Assembly (NCBI GenBank): GCA_020850355.1
Contig: JADZEX010000014.1
Location: forward strand, 1-64,000
Direction: 5' to 3'
Origin: Fimbriimonadaceae bacterium
Lineage (GTDB): Bacteria > Armatimonadota > UBA10988
DNA: 64,000 nucleotides
Within the stretch, counting starts at the first letter, position 1. Every line of letters begins with the position of its first letter. Below are positions 8,892 through 28,092 of the stretch, piece by piece. Under the pieces are notes generated by a model, which saw nothing but the letters and a program-made list of their open reading frames with translations, did not search any database and was not told where the DNA came from. The position numbers and the translations under genes were made by a program.

Positions 8892-10364
8892 ATGCGCTGG
8901 TTGCCCCTGCTGGTCTTGCTGCCTCGCCTCGCCGCGGCGGCGCTGGTGGCCGGGCCCTGGGCCGCCGACGCCGGGCTGACCGCCTACACCGAGACCACCG
9001 GCCGGCCGGTCGTGCGGGCCGGTGAGGCCAACCCGCTGCGCGCCTATCACGGCTCCTGCACCTGGTTCGTGCATGCCGTCTGTCCCTTCGAACTGCCGAC
9101 CCGGGGCCAGCCGCGAGAGTACCTCGACCGGGCCCTGGAGCGCGGCTACCCGATCGCCGGGATGCCGCAGCCGGGGGCGGTGGCGGTCTGGGGCGACGGG
9201 GCGGGAGGCGGCCGCGGGCATTTGGCGTATGTCACCGCGGTGGAGGTGGAGCCGGCCAGCTTCGACCTCTGGGACAGCAACTGGGCCAGCCCGCCGGATC
9301 ACCGCGTGCGCTGGCGACGGCACGCCGTCGACGACCCGAAGCTGCTGGGCTTCATCCTGCCACCGCAGCCGGAGCAGCCTGTGACCGCCCGTCAACGCTT
9401 CCTGGCCACCTTCGTCGAGGGCCGGCGCGGCTGCCCGCCGTACCACGAGCGCAGCGTGCGCGAGGAGGTGCTGGCGGGCTGGGAAGCCGCCGGGCATCCC
9501 CGTGCCAGCGTCGAGCCGCTGCTCGACTTCGATCCCTGGCAGACCGGCGGCTACTTCGGCCCGCCGAGCATCGACTTCCGGCCGCGTCCGCCGTTGCAGC
9601 ACGCCATCCGCGACCTCAGCGAGGTGGAGACCTGGTTGGCCAGTCACCAGCCGGCCGGCCGCTACGCCGCCGACTGGGACGCGCAGATCGCCCGCTTGCA
9701 GGGGCGCGACTGGCCGGCCGGGCTGAACTGCACCCGCGGCCTGTTGCAGGCCCTGGGCGTCACCGACGGCGGCTCGTTGGCTGACCTGCTGCTCTTCCTG
9801 GCCGACCAGCCGGCCGCCGTCGAACGCCTGATGGGCCACCTCGCCGAGCTGACCTGCACGCTGATCGAACCCGCGCTGCGCTCGTTCGCGGCCGACTACC
9901 TGGTGATTGGCGAGCCCATCGCCAGCCAGCACGCGCCGGTGATCTCGCCGACGATGTTCCGCCGCTACTGCCTGCCGCTCTACCAGCGCCTGATCACCTG
10001 CGCCCGCGGAGTCGGCGTGCCGGTGATCATCTGGGAGAGTTACGGGCAGATCAGCCCACTCTTGCCCGTCGTGCTCGAGGCGGGGGTGGACGCCATCTGG
10101 ATCGGTCACGCCGCCGGCTCGGGCGTCGACTACCACCGTTTGCGGCAGCGCTATGGGCCGGCGTTGGGGTTGATCGGCGGGATCGACAACCGCTGGCTGC
10201 GCGGACCGTTGGAGCGCCTGGCGCCGGCCGTCGAACGGTTCGTCACGCCGTTGCTGGAGAGCGGTCGCTACGCGCCGATGCTCGACGACCGGGTCCGCCC
10301 GAACATCACTCCGCAGGCCTTCGCCGAGTACCGGCGGGTGATGGCGCGCCTGCTGGGGCGCTGA
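8892..10364 (+). CDS. CHAP-domain secreted protein fused in frame to a URO-D-fold enzyme
   Basis: The frame is open for 490 codons and contains two unrelated proteins. Residues 1-27 are a signal peptide. Residues about 45-157 are a CHAP amidase/peptidase domain with Cys56 (GSCTWFV), His110 (RGHLAYV) and Asn130 (DSNW), the usual catalytic set, ending with LLGFILP as CHAP domains do. Residues 164-490 match the uroporphyrinogen decarboxylase/MtaA TIM barrel from its very first residue, since VTARQRFLATF aligns with MTGRQRVLAAF of the homologue at 23202. Residue 164 is a GTG with GGAG 6 nt upstream, so the barrel could be made alone. The barrel lacks the His-x-Cys zinc ligands. A secreted URO-D barrel would be odd. 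A lost stop codon or sequence error is the main alternative. Confidence 0.75.
   Translation: MRWLPLLVLLPRLAAAALVAGPWAADAGLTAYTETTGRPVVRAGEANPLRAYHGSCTWFVHAVCPFELPTRGQPREYLDRALERGYPIAGMPQPGAVAVWGDGAGGGRGHLAYVTAVEVEPASFDLWDSNWASPPDHRVRWRRHAVDDPKLLGFILPPQPEQPVTARQRFLATFVEGRRGCPPYHERSVREEVLAGWEAAGHPRASVEPLLDFDPWQTGGYFGPPSIDFRPRPPLQHAIRDLSEVETWLASHQPAGRYAADWDAQIARLQGRDWPAGLNCTRGLLQALGVTDGGSLADLLLFLADQPAAVERLMGHLAELTCTLIEPALRSFAADYLVIGEPIASQHAPVISPTMFRRYCLPLYQRLITCARGVGVPVIIWESYGQISPLLPVVLEAGVDAIWIGHAAGSGVDYHRLRQRYGPALGLIGGIDNRWLRGPLERLAPAVERFVTPLLESGRYAPMLDDRVRPNITPQAFAEYRRVMARLLGR
9371..9384 (+). promoter_or_regulatory. Internal ribosome site and GTG start for the URO-D domain
   Basis: GGAG at 9371-9374, a 6-nt spacer and GTG at 9381-9383 fall exactly at the domain boundary. 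The same bases contain a TGA (9382-9384) in the +1 frame, giving the GTGA stop/start overlap typical of coupled genes if the upstream frame were shifted by one base. Confidence 0.5.
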
Positions 10365-16242: not shown

Positions 16243-18189
16243 TCATTTCATCTGCGGCAAGATGATCCCGCGGAGGATGATCTTCTGGCAGAACAGGAAG
16301 ATCAGCAGCACTGGGATCGAGTTCACGATGAACGAGGCCATCACCAGCCACGGCGTGCCGCTGAGGGTCTGGCTGAACTGGTAGGTCCAGACCGCCACGG
16401 TCCACATCGAGCGGTCCTGGCAGACGATGATCGCCCACTCCCAGCCGTTGTAGGCGTGGATGAACGCGTTCAACATGCTGAGCGCCAGGATCGGCTTGAC
16501 CAGCGGCACCGAGATCCGCCAGAAGACCATCCACTCGGGCGCGCCGTCGATGCTGGCGGCCTCGTAGAGCTCCTTCGGCAGGCTGTCGAAGAAGCCCTTC
16601 AGCATGAAGATGGTCATGCCGTTGGCGGCACCCGGCAGCACCAGCGCGGCGAAGGTGTTGAGCAGGCCGAGGTCGCGGAGCAGCAGGAACCCCGGGATTG
16701 CGGCCACCGCCGCCGGGAAGGCCATCGTGGCAAGGCAGAAGACGATGATCTTCTCGCCGTTGCGCAGCCGGAAGCGACTCAGCGCGTAGCCGGCCAGCGG
16801 GTTGACCGTCAGGGTGATCAGAATCGCCAGCAGCACCAGGGTAATGGTGTTGCGCACGGCCCGTCCGCGGTGCAGCAGATAGTCGAAGACGGTGGCGTAG
16901 TTGCCGGTCAGGCGGTCCCAGACGAACTCCCGCTCGTGGTGGCGGAAAGTCACCAGCAGCGCCTCGCCGAAGGGCAGCCGCAACTGCTCCAACTGCGTCA
17001 ACTGCAGGCCGTAGGCCTGGTTGATCCCGGCCAGGTCGTGATGCTGCCGCAGCGCGAACCGCTGAAAGGCCAGCTCCGGGAGCGTCGCGCGGATGGTCCA
17101 CTCGCCGACCGGAATGGTCGCCCGCAGGAAGTCCATCCAGACCTTCGCCAGCGGCCCGTCGGGCACGGTCGCGGTGAGCTGCACGGCGTCCCAGCCGGCG
17201 ACCGCCTGCCAGGGCTGGCCGCTGCCGCCCATCACGTCGTTGAAGTACTCCAGGTTGCGGAAGCGCTGCACCAGAAAGGCCTGGAAAGCCGCTGCCCGCG
17301 CCGTGCTGAGCTGCACCTCGACGTGGCGCAGCGGGAAGCCGTTGAGCAGGAACTTGTCCCACGCCGCCAGCACCGCCGGCGGGCTGGCGGCTGGGACCGG
17401 GTAGGGCAGCCGGGCCAGCTCCACCGCGCTCTCGACGGCCAGCTCCTTGCCGGCGAACTCCTCCCAGACGTACCGCAGCGCCGCCGGACGCAGGTAGCCG
17501 GCCGGGGCGTCCTGGCTCAGGAAGGGCGTGTAGCGGTTCTGACGGTAGGCCTCGCGGAACTCCAGCAGGTCGCGGTAGCGGGTGTCGACCAGCGGCACGT
17601 ACCCGGCCTGGTCAATCGGCTCCCCGCTCCACTCGCTGGCCGAGACCATCGCGAAGTCCTCGACGGCGATTTCCCAAGCCCGGTTGACGGCCTCCAGCGT
17701 CTGGTACTTGCCCCGCAGGAACGGCGCCACGAAGCGCGGGTCGTAGGCCAGCACGGCCTCCCGGGCGTCCCAGGTGCGGGCGAACTCGCCGTAATCGGCG
17801 GCGGCGCGCTCGACACCGGGGTCGGTGAGGCGGGCCAACTGCGCCGCCGCCCACTGGTCGGAGGCCGCGGTCTCGTCGCCGATCTGGGTCCACAGCGACC
17901 AGTCCACCGGGAGGTCCGGGAAGAACGACCGCAGTTGCCGCAACGAGCCGCGGTGGGCCGCCGGGAAGAAGCTGCAGAGCGTGCTCATCAGCCGGTCCGG
18001 ACGCGACCAGACATAGCGCGGCAGCGGGCTGCGGCGCTCGTAGTCGAAGCTGTTGCTGACCGAGCCGGTGAGCATGATCAGGAACGGCACGACCATCGTC
18101 AGGCCGCCCAGGCAGAGCGCCAGGTAGATCCCCAGCGTCAACATGCGGCCCTTGAACTTGCGGTGGTCGGCGTAGCTTAGGATCGCCAT
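16243..18189 (-). CDS. Sugar ABC transporter permease, MalG-like, with a ~395-residue extracytoplasmic insert
   Basis: The 648-residue protein is a MalG-type inner-membrane permease of the CUT1 sugar-importer family. Helix 1 is at about 17-42. The remaining helices begin at about 446 ([14 protein letters not shown]), and the ATPase-contact EAA loop is at 543-550 (EAASIDGA). Between helix 1 and helix 2 lies an insert of about 395 residues, where typical MalG proteins have a short loop. By topology it is outside the membrane. It contains two similar stretches, [18 protein letters not shown] (about 180-200) and [22 protein letters not shown] (about 375-400), which suggest an internal duplication. 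It starts 1 nt after the stop of the fused binding-protein/permease gene. No ATPase gene is nearby, so a shared MsmK/UgpC-type ATPase is likely. Confidence 0.88.
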
Positions 18190-18190
18190 C

Positions 18191-20878
18191 TCAGTCCCCC
18201 TTCGCCTGCCGGAAGTCGACCCGCCGCAGGATCCGCAACTGCAGGTAGGTGAAGGCGATCAGCATGCTGCCGAGGATCCAGGCGTAGGAGGTCGCCAGGC
18301 TGAAGCGCAGGTTGACATACGCCTCTTGCCAGATCGCCATGCCCATCACCATGGTCTCTTTGCCCGGCCCGCCGAAGGTCAGCAGGAAGATGGCGCCCAT
18401 CGACTGGAACGTGCCGATGAAGGTGCCGACGAAGTTGATCAGCACCAGCGGCAGAATCGTCGGGATGGTGATGTGCCGGATCCGCTGCAAGATCCCGGCC
18501 CCGTCGATGGTCGCCGCCTCGTACAGCTCGTCGGGGACGCTCTTCAGCGCCGCCAGGTAGATCAAGCTGCCGATCCCCGCGCCGGCCCAGACCCCGGGGA
18601 TGATCACGCAGGCCATCACGGTCGCCGGGTTGCCCAGCCAGTCGATCGGCTTGATGGTCTCCGGCAGCCAGCCCGACAGCCAAGGCAGCAGGCGGATGGT
18701 CGCCAGGAAGCCGGTCAGCACCTGGTTGATGGTGCCGCTGGCGGTGCCCACGAACATCTCCTTCCAGAGCAGCGTGACGACCAGTCCGCTGGTCATCTGG
18801 GGCAGGAAGAAGAGCGTTCGGAAGAGGATCTTGAAGCGCGGTACCTCGCTCAGCAGCAGCGCCAGGACGATCGGCGTGAAGAAGGCCAGGCCGAGGCTCC
18901 AGAGCACGAACCGAAAGGTCGTCGAAATGTAGACCCAGGTGTTCGGGTCGAGCCAGATGCTGATGAAGTTGTCGAGCCCGACCAGCGGCGAGCGGCCGAC
19001 GATCTTGTAGTCCTGGAAGGCCATCAACAGGCCGCGCCCGAGCGGGTAGTAGCCCCACACCGCGATGCTGCAGAGCGCCGGCAGGAGCATCACGAAGGGC
19101 AACCAGCCGCGGTAGACCCCAGCCGTCGACTGCACCCGCCGCAGTTGGTCACGGACGATCAGCACCCCGAAGAAGAGGAACAGCAGGGCCGCCAGAGCGA
19201 CCACCAGCCGGGCCTTCGGCCGGTAGGGTTGCAGCGCCTCGGGCGGCCGTTCGAACATGATGCCGGTGTTGGCGTCCTGCTCCAACTGCTTCAGCGCGCT
19301 GCGGTAGTCGAAGCCCTCGCCACTTGGGCGGAGCACCAGGTCGATCGCCTCGCGCTTGTAGAAGTCGCGGAACTGCAGCCACTTGCCCATGAAGGGCTCG
19401 ACCACTTCGAGGATCTCACCGCGCTCGATCTGCTCCCACATCGCCAGATTCTCGGGCGGCATCTCGCGAATGTAGTCGTCGAAACCGAGCCGGTGCAGGT
19501 CGCGCGGGTTGAGGAACTTGGCCTGCCCGGCGGCGACCTTGCGGCGGATCACCTCGTCGCTGCCCTCGGGGCTGCAGATCCCGCCCATCACTTCCCAGAC
19601 CAGGTCGCGGTACTGCTTCTTGGCCGCCGCGCTGTCGCCGCCGCGGCGCAGCACGTCCTTGCCGATCATGAAGAAGGAGTTGCTCGCCTGCAGCACCGGC
19701 CGCTGCGCCGCGGTGCGACCAGGGAACGGCAACATGCCCATGTCGGACGGGTCCAGCCCGGCGTTCTCGAACTCGGTCATGTCGCCCGACCAGAGCGGGT
19801 ACATCGCCAGGTCGCGCCCCAGCCGCTTCACCGTGTCCATGATGTTGGCCGTGGTGACGCTGATGCTGCCGTGGATCACCTGATCTTCGCTGAAGCGCAG
19901 CGGGCGACCCTGGAAGACCACCTGCCCGGCGCTGACCTGCTCGGCGGTCAACTCGACGGGCTCTTTGGTCTGCCGGTCCAGGATCCACGGGGCCCAGCGC
20001 AACCGGTGGTAGAACTCCACCGCGGCGGCGCACTCCGGACTGGCGACATTGCAGCGCCAGACCGGTTTGACGTTCTGCAGGTCTTCCCCGGTGTCCGGGG
20101 CGTGGAAGTCGGTGGCCTGCTCGTTGAAGATATAGTCGCGGCCGGTGGTCGGGCTGCGGCGAGTCTGCACGACGATGCTTGAGCCGGTCGTGGCGACCCA
20201 CGGGGCAAAGGCCCAGGACTCCGGGGTCAGCTCCAGCCCGAAGGTCTTCTTGGCGGGATCGTACAGCTTGCGGACCCAACGGATGTACTCGTCATAGGTC
20301 CGTGGAGGTTGCGTTGGATCGAGGCCGGCCTGCTGCAACAGGCTCTTGCTGTACAGAATGCCGACGTAGGTGCCGCCGCGGTTCGGCAGCGCATAGGCGA
20401 TCCCGTCAACGGTCACGACCTGCCGGTAGAGTGGCTTGATCTGCATCCAGCCCGGCCACTTTGCTTCGTCGGCGTCGATCTGACCATTCAGGTCTGGTTG
20501 GCCGTTCGGCAGTCGTTTTGGCTGGCCCGAGGCCAGGATGCCGTCCTGGCCGATCCACTCGGTGAGCGGGTAGGCCAGCCCTTGCGAGACCGCCTGTCGG
20601 ATGTCGGTCTCGAAGATGTCCGGCCCGATGTTGGCGGCCATCGCCATCGCCAGTGAGGCCCGCGCCCCCTGGGCCGGCATCGAGACCCCGTCCCACTGCT
20701 TCAGACGCACGTTTGGGTGGGCCTGCAGCCAGTTGCGCAGATTCTGCGGCAGCCGTTGCTGGGTGTTGAAGCGCGAGGTGACCGAGATGTCGAAGGTCTC
20801 GCCCAGCGCCGGCCCGACAGCCAGCCAGCCCACAATCGCGACAGCGGTCCACCAGCGCAGCAACTTCACGGCAGGCAC
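18191..20878 (-). CDS. Solute-binding protein fused to MalF-like ABC permease
   Basis: An 895-residue fusion. Residues 1-27 are a signal peptide or membrane anchor. Residues about 28-540 form an extracellular type-1 sugar-binding protein (SRFNTQQRLP, GPDIFETDIRQAV, YVGILYSKSLLQQAGLDP). A helix at about 556-578 then leads to a MalF-type permease (about 590-890) with the EAA motif at 787-794 (EAATIDGA). The fusion tethers the receptor to its own channel, so the importer needs no diffusing binding protein. The GTG start has GGAG 8 nt upstream, and the gene is divergent from the secreted FN3 gene. Together with the inserted MalG-like partner it should form a heterodimeric sugar importer. The sugar is unknown, but the neighbours suggest plant or algal oligosaccharides. 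Confidence 0.9.
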   Translation of the reverse strand: MPAVKLLRWWTAVAIVGWLAVGPALGETFDISVTSRFNTQQRLPQNLRNWLQAHPNVRLKQWDGVSMPAQGARASLAMAMAANIGPDIFETDIRQAVSQGLAYPLTEWIGQDGILASGQPKRLPNGQPDLNGQIDADEAKWPGWMQIKPLYRQVVTVDGIAYALPNRGGTYVGILYSKSLLQQAGLDPTQPPRTYDEYIRWVRKLYDPAKKTFGLELTPESWAFAPWVATTGSSIVVQTRRSPTTGRDYIFNEQATDFHAPDTGEDLQNVKPVWRCNVASPECAAAVEFYHRLRWAPWILDRQTKEPVELTAEQVSAGQVVFQGRPLRFSEDQVIHGSISVTTANIMDTVKRLGRDLAMYPLWSGDMTEFENAGLDPSDMGMLPFPGRTAAQRPVLQASNSFFMIGKDVLRRGGDSAAAKKQYRDLVWEVMGGICSPEGSDEVIRRKVAAGQAKFLNPRDLHRLGFDDYIREMPPENLAMWEQIERGEILEVVEPFMGKWLQFRDFYKREAIDLVLRPSGEGFDYRSALKQLEQDANTGIMFERPPEALQPYRPKARLVVALAALLFLFFGVLIVRDQLRRVQSTAGVYRGWLPFVMLLPALCSIAVWGYYPLGRGLLMAFQDYKIVGRSPLVGLDNFISIWLDPNTWVYISTTFRFVLWSLGLAFFTPIVLALLLSEVPRFKILFRTLFFLPQMTSGLVVTLLWKEMFVGTASGTINQVLTGFLATIRLLPWLSGWLPETIKPIDWLGNPATVMACVIIPGVWAGAGIGSLIYLAALKSVPDELYEAATIDGAGILQRIRHITIPTILPLVLINFVGTFIGTFQSMGAIFLLTFGGPGKETMVMGMAIWQEAYVNLRFSLATSYAWILGSMLIAFTYLQLRILRRVDFRQAKGD

Positions 20879-20892
20879 TCACAAGGCTCCGA

Positions 20893-20999
20893 CAGGCAGG
20901 AGCGGCGGAACGCGCTTTCGACAGGGCCGCGGGGAGTCCTTTCGGGTTGCCCCGCAGGATCGCCCACCGGTCTGCCCAACCAAGGGCCGGAGACCTGCC
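20893..20999 (+). promoter_or_regulatory. B12-box-like leader upstream of the FN3 gene (possible cobalamin-riboswitch remnant)
   Basis: The bases just before the ATG at 21000 read GGCCGGAGACCTGCC, matching the 3' B12 box of cobalamin riboswitches at the whole GGAGACCTGCC core. GGCAGG at 20895-20900 can pair with its CCTGCC (20994-20999) to close about 93 nt, and GCGGGG/CCCCGC forms an inner stem. The other conserved core segments are not convincingly present, and the space is short for a full element. The ribosome site GGAG lies in the box. Confidence 0.22.
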
Positions 21000-22433
21000 A
21001 TGCGCGGTGTCGCACCAGCTCGTCGTTGGTTCCTGCTGCTGCTGCTCCCGGCCGTGGCCCTAGCCGACGAGCGGATCGGCTTCCGCGAGGATGGCAGCAG
21101 CACCACGGGCCGGACCATCGATCCGTGGCCGGGTCTGAGCGGGGTGGCCGCGGTGGAGCACAGCGGGCTCGAAGGCCTGCTGTCGGAGGAGGTGACGATC
21201 ACCCCAGCGGAGCCGGCGCGGCGCTATCTGGAGCCCGAAGAGGGCGACCTGCGGCCACCAGCGCGGGTGGCCTTCGAGGGTGGCTGCTCCGGCGACCGTT
21301 ACGTCCGGATCTGGCACGAAGCGAGTCACGAGACCGCTGGCCAGATCGCGCTGTCGCTGCGCCTCAGCCGCGCCGCGGAGTACGTCGTGCAGGCCCGGCT
21401 GCGCGGCCACGGCAGCCTGACGCTGCGCTGCGCTGACCAACAGACCGCCGGCCGCAGCAGCAGCGACGCCTGGCAGTGGCAGCCGCTCGGCCGGTTGCGG
21501 CTGCCGGCGGGCGAGGTGTCGCTACAAATCGAGAGCGACTCAGACGGCCTGGCCGTGGACCTGCTCTGGCTGACCACCACCGCCGAGCCGCCGCCGATGG
21601 TGGACGACCGGCCGACCGCCCCGGCGGCGGTGCAGGGCTTGCGCGGGGAGTTCCGGGAGCCGAACCTGCTGCAGCTCTCCTGGACCGCGTCAGCCGACCC
21701 GGCGGTGACGCGCTACGACGTCCACGTCGGCGCCGCTCCGCGGTTCACGGCCGACAACTCCAGCCTGCTCAGCTCGGCTGCGGCCACCACCGCCTGCGAC
21801 TGGGGCCTGGCGCCGGGGCGGGTGGTCTATTACCAGGTCCGTGCGGTCAGCAGCCGCGGCATCGCCGCGGCCCCGGCCGAGCTGCGCGTCGTCTGGCCGA
21901 CCTGGCCGACCGCCACAGTCGAGCTGGCCGCCAGCGCGGCGCGGCTCAGTGGGGGGCTGCAACCCGGCGTCTCGCGCGGCGTGGAGCATGTCTGGTTGCC
22001 GCTGCCAGCCGCGGCCAGCGGACCGCGGCCGCGGGCCGAGTGGGAGGTCGTGGTGCCCCGCGCCGGGCGCTACTACGTCTGGGCGCGGTACGCCACCTAC
22101 GATGCGCGCACCGTCGGGCTGCTCTGGCTGACGGCCCCCAGCGAGCAGCGCGCGATGGGTGTCAACTGGCGGCTGCGGCTGCCCGGTACGCTGCCCCGCC
22201 ACCTCAACGGGGTGGAGCCCGGGGCCGAGATCTGGTTCAGCGACAAGTGGCTGGCCGGCTTCTGGGCCGGACCGACCGACTACCTGGACCTGTCCGCCGG
22301 CACGCAGCGGGTCGGTGTCGAGTTCGAGCCGACCCAATCGCCCCGCGGGCCGCGCCTGGCGACGGTCTGGTTGAGCAGCGATCCGAGCTTCCGCCCGCCG
22401 GGCTACGACCCGCGGATCGACTTCGTGAAGTAG
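21000..22433 (+). CDS. Secreted protein with fibronectin type III and carbohydrate-binding-like modules
   Basis: The likely product of 477 residues starts with a signal peptide (RRWFLLLLLPAVALA). The ATG at 21000 follows GGAGAC at good spacing, and the frame upstream of it belongs to the divergent gene's leader. Residues about 50-190 look like a jelly-roll, golvesin or CBM-like sandwich (DRYVRIWHEAS, EYVVQARLRG). Residues about 193-285 are a fibronectin type III domain (LLQLSWTASADPAVTRYDVHV, VVYYQVRAVSSRGIAAAP). Residues about 295-460 are a second sandwich (AEWEVVVPRAGRYYVWARY). No catalytic domain is visible. It is probably a surface or secreted polysaccharide-binding protein, divergent from the sugar importer. 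Confidence 0.75.
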   Translation: MRGVAPARRWFLLLLLPAVALADERIGFREDGSSTTGRTIDPWPGLSGVAAVEHSGLEGLLSEEVTITPAEPARRYLEPEEGDLRPPARVAFEGGCSGDRYVRIWHEASHETAGQIALSLRLSRAAEYVVQARLRGHGSLTLRCADQQTAGRSSSDAWQWQPLGRLRLPAGEVSLQIESDSDGLAVDLLWLTTTAEPPPMVDDRPTAPAAVQGLRGEFREPNLLQLSWTASADPAVTRYDVHVGAAPRFTADNSSLLSSAAATTACDWGLAPGRVVYYQVRAVSSRGIAAAPAELRVVWPTWPTATVELAASAARLSGGLQPGVSRGVEHVWLPLPAAASGPRPRAEWEVVVPRAGRYYVWARYATYDARTVGLLWLTAPSEQRAMGVNWRLRLPGTLPRHLNGVEPGAEIWFSDKWLAGFWAGPTDYLDLSAGTQRVGVEFEPTQSPRGPRLATVWLSSDPSFRPPGYDPRIDFVK

Positions 22434-26415: not shown

Positions 26416-28092
26416 ATGCCTGCGCGATGGTCGCGGTTCTGGTTGCCGATTGGCGTGGCGCTGACGGCGGCGGTGGCCTACCTGGCGGTCGGTCCCGGTA
26501 TCTTCCCGATGGATGACGCCTACATCCACGCCGTCTACGCGCGGCATCTGGCGACCACCGGTCAGCTCACCTTCAACCTCAACCCGCCCGACCAGGGGCT
26601 CGGCACCACCAGCATCCTGTGGCCGTTGCTGCTGGCGGCGCTGCAGCCGCTCGGCGGGGTGGTCGTGGCGGCGCGCCTGTGGGGCTTGCTGGCCTGGGCC
26701 GCCTGCGCGGTCTGCCTGACTGTGATCGCCGGCTGGATGACCGGCGACGCGCGCCGCGGGCGCACCGCGGCCTGCGTCGTGCTGCTCTCGGGCAACCTCG
26801 TCTGGTTCACGCTCAGTGGCATGGAGACGATGCTCTGGGTGGCCTGCGGCCTCGGCGCGGTGGTGGCCTACCAACGCCGCCGCTTCGCGCTGGCCGGGGT
26901 CCTGCTGGGTCTGCTGATGCTGACCCGCATCGAGGGCTTTGTGCTGCTGTTCAGCCTGCTGGCGGTCGAACTGCTGGCCGAGCGCCGCCTGACCCGCGGG
27001 CCGTGGCTGGCGACGGCGCTGGCGTTCCTACTGCTCTCGCCGTGGCTGGTCTACGTCCATGGCCAGACCGGGAAGTGGCTGCCGACCAGCTATCAGGGCA
27101 AGAAGCATGCCCAGATGCGCGGCGCGGTGCAGACCGTCCGGACGGCGCTCGGCGGCGGGGCCGTCGCGGCGCGGATCGACGAAGAGCATCTCCCCATCTG
27201 GACCATCGCCATCTACCCGCTCGGCGCGCTGGGCTACGGCGCGGCCTTTGTGGCGGGCGGGGCCTACCTGCCGGGGCCGCGGCTGCCGTTGGGCGGGGAG
27301 TTGGGCCGGATCACCGATGGCGTGGCCTATGCGGTGATCCCGTTGAGCCTGCTGTTGTACTGGCTTGCCTGGCCGACATTGCGGCGAGCCGGGCGGACCG
27401 CCCGCCACGTCGTGGGTGCCCCTGCCACGCAGCGCGCGTTGCTGGTCCTGGCGCTCTGGTTCCTGCTGCACAACCTGGCCTACTGGGCGAAGCTGCCGAC
27501 GCCGGGCACGGCGAGTCGCTACCAGGTGGTCAACCACCTGGCCTGGTGGCTGCTGCTGGCGGTCGGGGCGCTGGCGCAGCAGCCCCGCCGGGGGCGCTGG
27601 CCGCTGGTCTTGGTGGCGGCGCTGGCGCTGGTCAACTGCGGCTGGTGGTGGACCGTCTACCGCGCCGACGTGCGCCACATGCGCGACGTGCGGTTGGCCG
27701 CGGCGGAGTACATCGCGGCCCGCACCGCGCCGACCGACGTCGTCGCGGCGCACGATATTGGGGCGTTGGGTTGGGCGATGCAGCGGCGCTGCGTCGATCT
27801 CGGCGGGCTGATCGACCCCGGCTGGCTGAACGCCGCCAAGGCCGACCGGCAGGCCGCCTACCTGCAGGAGCAGCGGGCCACCTGGCTGGTGCTGCCCGAC
27901 AAGCACAGCAGCGAGGCGAAGGGCTTCTTCGACTACGCCGAGTTCCTCGGTCTGCGTGGCAATCCGCAGATCCGCTACCAGCCGGTGCAGTCGTTCGAGA
28001 ACGACTACGGGGAGTGGCGGCGGGGCGCGATGTCGACCTGGAACGCGCTCCCCGCGGTGACCATCTACCGGCTCGACTGGACCGCGCCATGA
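26416..28092 (+). CDS. GT-C-fold membrane glycosyltransferase-like protein
   Basis: A 558-residue protein with about ten to twelve membrane helices. The first extracytoplasmic loop carries a DDAYIHAVYARHLATTG motif (about residues 33-49) with the Asp-Asp typical of GT-C polyprenyl-phosphate-sugar transferases. TLSGMETMLW (about 133-142) resembles the SGMET element of the AftB/mannosyltransferase-like families. The C-terminal ~130 residues (DVVAAHDIGALGWAMQRRCVDLGGLIDP) form a soluble extracytoplasmic domain seen in the same family. It probably transfers a sugar from a lipid carrier to a cell-envelope glycan, with donor and acceptor unknown. It is apparently translated from a leaderless transcript. 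The next gene overlaps its stop as ATGA. Confidence 0.8.
   Translation: MPARWSRFWLPIGVALTAAVAYLAVGPGIFPMDDAYIHAVYARHLATTGQLTFNLNPPDQGLGTTSILWPLLLAALQPLGGVVVAARLWGLLAWAACAVCLTVIAGWMTGDARRGRTAACVVLLSGNLVWFTLSGMETMLWVACGLGAVVAYQRRRFALAGVLLGLLMLTRIEGFVLLFSLLAVELLAERRLTRGPWLATALAFLLLSPWLVYVHGQTGKWLPTSYQGKKHAQMRGAVQTVRTALGGGAVAARIDEEHLPIWTIAIYPLGALGYGAAFVAGGAYLPGPRLPLGGELGRITDGVAYAVIPLSLLLYWLAWPTLRRAGRTARHVVGAPATQRALLVLALWFLLHNLAYWAKLPTPGTASRYQVVNHLAWWLLLAVGALAQQPRRGRWPLVLVAALALVNCGWWWTVYRADVRHMRDVRLAAAEYIAARTAPTDVVAAHDIGALGWAMQRRCVDLGGLIDPGWLNAAKADRQAAYLQEQRATWLVLPDKHSSEAKGFFDYAEFLGLRGNPQIRYQPVQSFENDYGEWRRGAMSTWNALPAVTIYRLDWTAP

Follow-up and report, generated by a model that had tools for sequence, protein, structure and literature searches.

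A MalG-type sugar permease of Armatimonadota carrying an array of glycosidase-related repeats, a candidate docking arm for a tethered receptor

In the CUT1 family of type I importers, permeases such as MalG, UgpE, SugB and AlgM2 have six transmembrane helices, a BPD_transp_1 domain, an EAA loop and a MalF-type partner, and the loop between their helices 1 and 2 is about 35 residues long. The EAA loop of these permeases is cytoplasmic. OpuA and GlnPQ belong to other importer families. A large external loop, P2, sits on E. coli MalF between helices 3 and 4, and its interaction with the binding protein MalE within the maltose transporter is the subject announced in the titles of Daus 2009 and Grote 2009, as cited in PMC3328499. 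Receptors covalently joined to a permease subunit are found in OpuA and GlnPQ (PMC11065425, PMC8025302). The permease pair considered here, encoded in a stretch of 64,000 nucleotides from a Fimbriimonadaceae bacterium (hereafter the window), resembles each of these designs in part. Its MalG-type subunit, the array MalG, has the features listed above for CUT1 permeases but about 400 residues between helices 1 and 2. Like MalF with its P2 loop, it is a CUT1 permease with a large external loop; here the loop belongs to MalG and joins its helices 1 and 2, its sequence is repetitive and unrelated to that of P2, and its contact with the receptor is predicted. As in OpuA and GlnPQ, a receptor is fused to the permease, but here it is MalF that bears the receptor, and the other subunit has a large arm of its own.

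The array MalG gene and its parts are as follows.

16243..18189, minus strand: MalG-type permease gene with the repeat-array insert (ORF, Pfam, PDB relatives, full-length homologues)
18067..18147, minus strand: transmembrane helix 1, about residues 15–41 (hydropathy of relatives; helix 12–41 in a low-confidence model)
16894..18054, minus strand: extracytoplasmic insert, residues 46–432 (alignments with relatives; six-helix parity)
16246..16893, minus strand: permease core, residues 433–648, five helices (BPD_transp_1 at 482–640; PDB relatives)
16492..16569, minus strand: EAA-type motif, 26 residues, cytoplasmic coupling loop (sequence; conserved in the window's clade)

The sole Pfam match of the 648-residue protein is BPD_transp_1 (residues 482–640, 59.8 bits against a cut-off of 26.4), and its PDB relatives AlgM2, SugB and MalG align to it only from about residue 430 on; from the window sequence alone the insert has no direct Pfam or PDB match. 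NCBIfam equivalog scores stay far under their cut-offs (UgpE 86.8 of 297 bits, MalG 75.1 of 261), and we read the protein as the MalG-type subunit in the permease pair of a CUT1-like type I sugar importer. In L081 and other relatives, hydropathy places one helix before the insert and five after it. Because the EAA loop (residues 541–566) follows helix 4 and is cytoplasmic, helix parity puts the helix 1–2 loop, and with it the insert, outside the cytoplasm, which rules out a cytoplasmic insert. An ordinary MalG loop is ruled out as well, as the insert does not align to one and L002, the plain MalG encoded in the same genome, has a stretch of roughly 35 residues between these helices. An earlier note on this DNA had proposed a MalG-type permease with a large external domain between helices 1 and 2, and Pfam, PDB alignments and helix parity confirm that reading; the size it gave, about 395 residues, comes out nearer 387. 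The architecture is well supported, whereas the mechanism considered below is a proposal.

The partner is encoded on the same strand.

18191..20878, minus strand: partner gene, solute-binding domain fused to a MalF-type permease, 895 aa (ORF, Pfam, PDB)
19199..20800, minus strand: solute-binding domain of the partner, about residues 27–560 (SBP_bac_1 at 50–263; sugar-binding proteins in PDB)
18224..19117, minus strand: MalF core of the partner, about residues 588–885 (PDB alignment)

That the partner is fused to a receptor had been noticed before and holds: SBP_bac_1 (50–263) and BPD_transp_1 (671–890) lie in one chain. Its stop is 1 base before the start of the array MalG, and the two genes therefore probably form one operon. 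Its MalF core aligns along the length of AlgM1, whereas its alignment to E. coli MalF begins only past residue 258, from which it follows that the partner MalF lacks the P2 loop. The tie between insert and fused partner extends across genomes, as the earlier note had supposed: among 291 Armatimonadota genomes, array and SBP-MalF fusion occur together in 138, the array alone in 11, the fusion alone in 3 and neither in 139, counts that we prefer to a Fisher p-value, which is inflated by the many related genomes they include. Several of the genomes with only one of the two are incomplete. In families f7, f8, f9, f16 and f17, no MalF lies beside the array gene in the fetched loci, L097 excepted, and most of these genomes carry the SBP-MalF fusion elsewhere. 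In 23 linked pairs, the distances among arrays follow those among binding domains beyond what both membrane cores account for (partial r 0.54, permutation p 0.0005), compared with a partial r of 0.08 (p 0.22) for array versus MalF-core distances; the array-binding domain signal is not unique, because the MalG core, too, covaries with the binding domain (partial r 0.40). As minor observations, the array MalG gene of L111–L120 (f16, f17) stands alone, the fetched flanks containing no MalF, and the SBP-MalF fusion at G008:C3:823343-825724 contains one in-frame TAG.

Homologues at 62–78% identity span residues 1–648 in Armatimonadetes and Lentisphaerae MAGs, and five loci in public genomes hold full-length or near full-length relatives within the same range of identity. 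Relatives conserve the insert over its whole length, so it is a genuine, inherited feature and not a product of chance or of an error in gene calling. The distribution of the array MalG was sampled in three phyla. It is present in 149 of the 291 Armatimonadota genomes (E < 1e-10; the insert alone matches in 51 of the 291 at E <= 0.001) and in 69 of 241 sampled genomes of the Lentisphaerota-containing phylum (E <= 1e-15), and none of 200 genomes of the third phylum, one that includes Oscillospiraceae, matches at 1e-10. In a tree of the permease core, built without the insert, all 64 sampled array MalGs fall on one side of a branch with support 100/99, against 26 plain MalGs, a small sample taken from around the genome's own plain MalG. 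Judged from the tree and the distribution, with frames open among the matches listed, the array was probably gained once, anciently, and kept across two phyla. A viral origin of the array was dropped, viral contigs having given no match. Retention of this kind, together with the many invariant positions in the array MalGs of the window's clade, speaks against a passenger domain that has no specific role and is slowly decaying; such a domain would fit the difficulty of recognising two of the repeats described next, R1 and R3, in the window's clade, and we regard it as very improbable.

The earlier note had seen two similar sub-stretches in the insert and suspected an internal duplication. Duplication there is, but the number was understated: the insert appears to hold five tandem repeats of about 55–75 residues, plain in distant relatives, degenerate but in register in the window protein.

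17758..17991, minus strand: repeat R1, residues 67–144, most degenerate (assigned by position only, by alignment to L032; hhalign match not significant, P 0.064)
17494..17721, minus strand: repeat R2, residues 157–232 (21.0 bits; hhalign P 6e-7)
17323..17466, minus strand: repeat R3, residues 242–289 (weak with the repeat HMM; hhalign P 2e-5)
17104..17286, minus strand: repeat R4, residues 302–362, clearest (23.3 bits; hhalign P 5e-11)
16912..17067, minus strand: repeat R5, residues 375–426, continuing into the segment before helix 2 (17.5 bits; hhalign P 2e-8)

An alignment of 34 relatives shows a recurring pattern close to YRxFLxxRYGxIxxLNxxYGTxYxSFxEIxLP...P.....DWxxFVxxxLPxxY. The repeat HMM (56 positions) was built from distant members, with the window protein and its close relatives left out; it finds five copies per protein in most distant relatives, ~70 residues apart and typically of 28–77 bits each, and in the window protein it gives the bit scores listed above, R1 and R3 being weak but in register. 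The maximum over 500 shuffles of the window insert was 4.3 bits, which with the register shared with relatives rules out chance repeats; the hhalign values come from a profile comparison of the window's clade. Structure prediction and a fold search, which the earlier note had suggested, could be carried out but yielded little: the models of the array MalG are poor (mean pLDDT 46.7 and 56.0, six sequences used each) because only six sequences were usable, and the search with the better model gave no significant match (best E 0.44). GH50, GH42 and GH14 enzymes are prominent in its list, which we do not take as independent proof of kinship. In L006:3-140 and L015, by a contig end, the array MalG lacks the normal N-terminus and has an unrelated hydrophobic stretch at its start instead, which probably reflects the assembly.

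Against the PDB, the insert profile matches GH14 beta-amylases (3voc, 4e-7) and GH42 beta-galactosidases, always over one short segment, and the profile of a single repeat matches GH42 1kwg (3e-9), GH14 3voc (5e-8), the GH50-type agarase 4bq4 (6e-4) and GH167 (2e-3). Pfam GH42 matches occur in 19 of 30 inserts (best 2e-21) and are repeatedly confined to about positions 148–213 of the 376 of that profile. These comparisons tie each repeat to a helical segment of ~35–60 residues in GH42 and GH14 TIM-barrel glycosidases, a segment that we take to follow the acid/base catalytic residue in these enzymes. The window protein itself has no direct GH42 match, and its kinship runs through its relatives. 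While each repeat matches one short segment of the enzymes, the insert differs from them in having no TIM barrel with catalytic residues, the catalytic parts being absent, and in presenting five copies of the segment in a row in a membrane transporter. The repeats also lack the five-residue AFWSQ stretch that GH42 1kwg has inside the motif and that presumably holds an active-site Trp. With neither this stretch nor any kinship to solute-binding proteins in its repeats, the insert does not look like the second receptor that had been suggested. Within the window's genome, the array profile occurs in tandem only in the array MalG permease and singly in other large proteins; the eight single-copy proteins tested by Pfam (L143–L150) are all GH42- or GH14-like. 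Several of these eight, about 1000 aa long and with only a partial GH42 match, may be undescribed glycosidases.

Such kinship raises the question whether the array itself is a sugar-binding surface, whose glycosidase-derived modules, standing in a row, would grip a long oligosaccharide before the fused receptor takes it over. The enzymes to which every repeat is related by one segment act on polysaccharides or oligosaccharides, and aromatic residues recur in each repeat; against this, the GH42 match starts only after the acid/base residue, the AFWSQ stretch is missing, and the invariant W and P positions of the repeats look structural, and we find the idea quite unlikely. It is improbable, too, that the tandem-copied glycosidase segment forms an external track feeding long oligosaccharides to the tethered receptor; if true, such an enzyme-derived substrate-relay arm would be an importer component of a so far undescribed type.

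In the reading that we favor, and to which we give a probability of about one in two, the array is an arm outside the cytoplasm on which the tethered receptor docks, and it replaces the missing MalF P2 loop. In this model, the helix 1–2 loop of MalG would have expanded to five tandem repeats that form a mainly helical arm, and this arm would serve as a docking and guiding surface for the binding domain fused to MalF. The arm might hold the tethered binding domain over the pore and help the hand-over of sugar, thereby doing the work of the E. coli MalF P2 loop, absent from the partner MalF. ATP hydrolysis would be provided by an unlinked MalK-type ATPase: no ATPase gene was seen beside the array MalG, and the one OB_MalK match in the window's genome, being unlinked, suggests a shared ATPase. 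We infer this docking and guiding of the tethered binding domain, the contact between the two being predicted; the pairing of array and fusion across genomes and the parallel divergence of array and binding domain speak for it indirectly. It counts against the docking reading that OpuA and GlnPQ, whose receptors are fused too, function with no arm of this sort.

The array is large, external and helical, and the length of the insert varies, the MalG ORFs spanning about 506 to 850 aa; those of families f16 and f17 are shorter (506–606 aa, with one or two recognisable repeats), and others reach 836–850 aa. These properties would also suit an envelope spacer or anchor, reaching not the receptor but a glycosidase, the cell wall or an outer-membrane porin. 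Such a role would leave the tight pairing with the receptor-fused MalF unexplained, and array MalG loci have no constant neighbour gene, glycosidase included: a GH29 adjoins L005, a CBM9-like protein adjoins L007, and in the window a sulfatase lies further off. We therefore regard a spacer or anchor as unlikely. For want of a constantly linked glycosidase gene, we also set aside the earlier proposal that the insert docks a surface glycosidase; docking of the tethered receptor fits better than either this or a second receptor.

No description of the array-importer family was found in the literature searched, which was covered in part, and a Fimbriimonas genome paper, in the passages found, counts sugar transporters and does not describe the family. 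It is apparently an undescribed importer family, widespread in Armatimonadota and in the Lentisphaerota-containing phylum. In this family, a fragment of an enzyme that cleaves carbohydrates has been copied several times and set on a sugar permease, and it co-occurs with a partner to which the receptor is fused. The family offers a second, independent case for asking by what means type I importers keep hold of their binding protein, and the array is a setting in which a recurrent enzyme segment can exist by itself as a repeat module.

Elsewhere in the window, two long ORFs near the importer (20913–22430 and 26416–28089, both plus strand) have no Pfam match. A 490-aa ORF at 8892–10361 (plus strand) joins a CHAP domain (52–118) to a URO-D domain (296–452); the fusion may be genuine, or the loss of a stop may have run two genes together.
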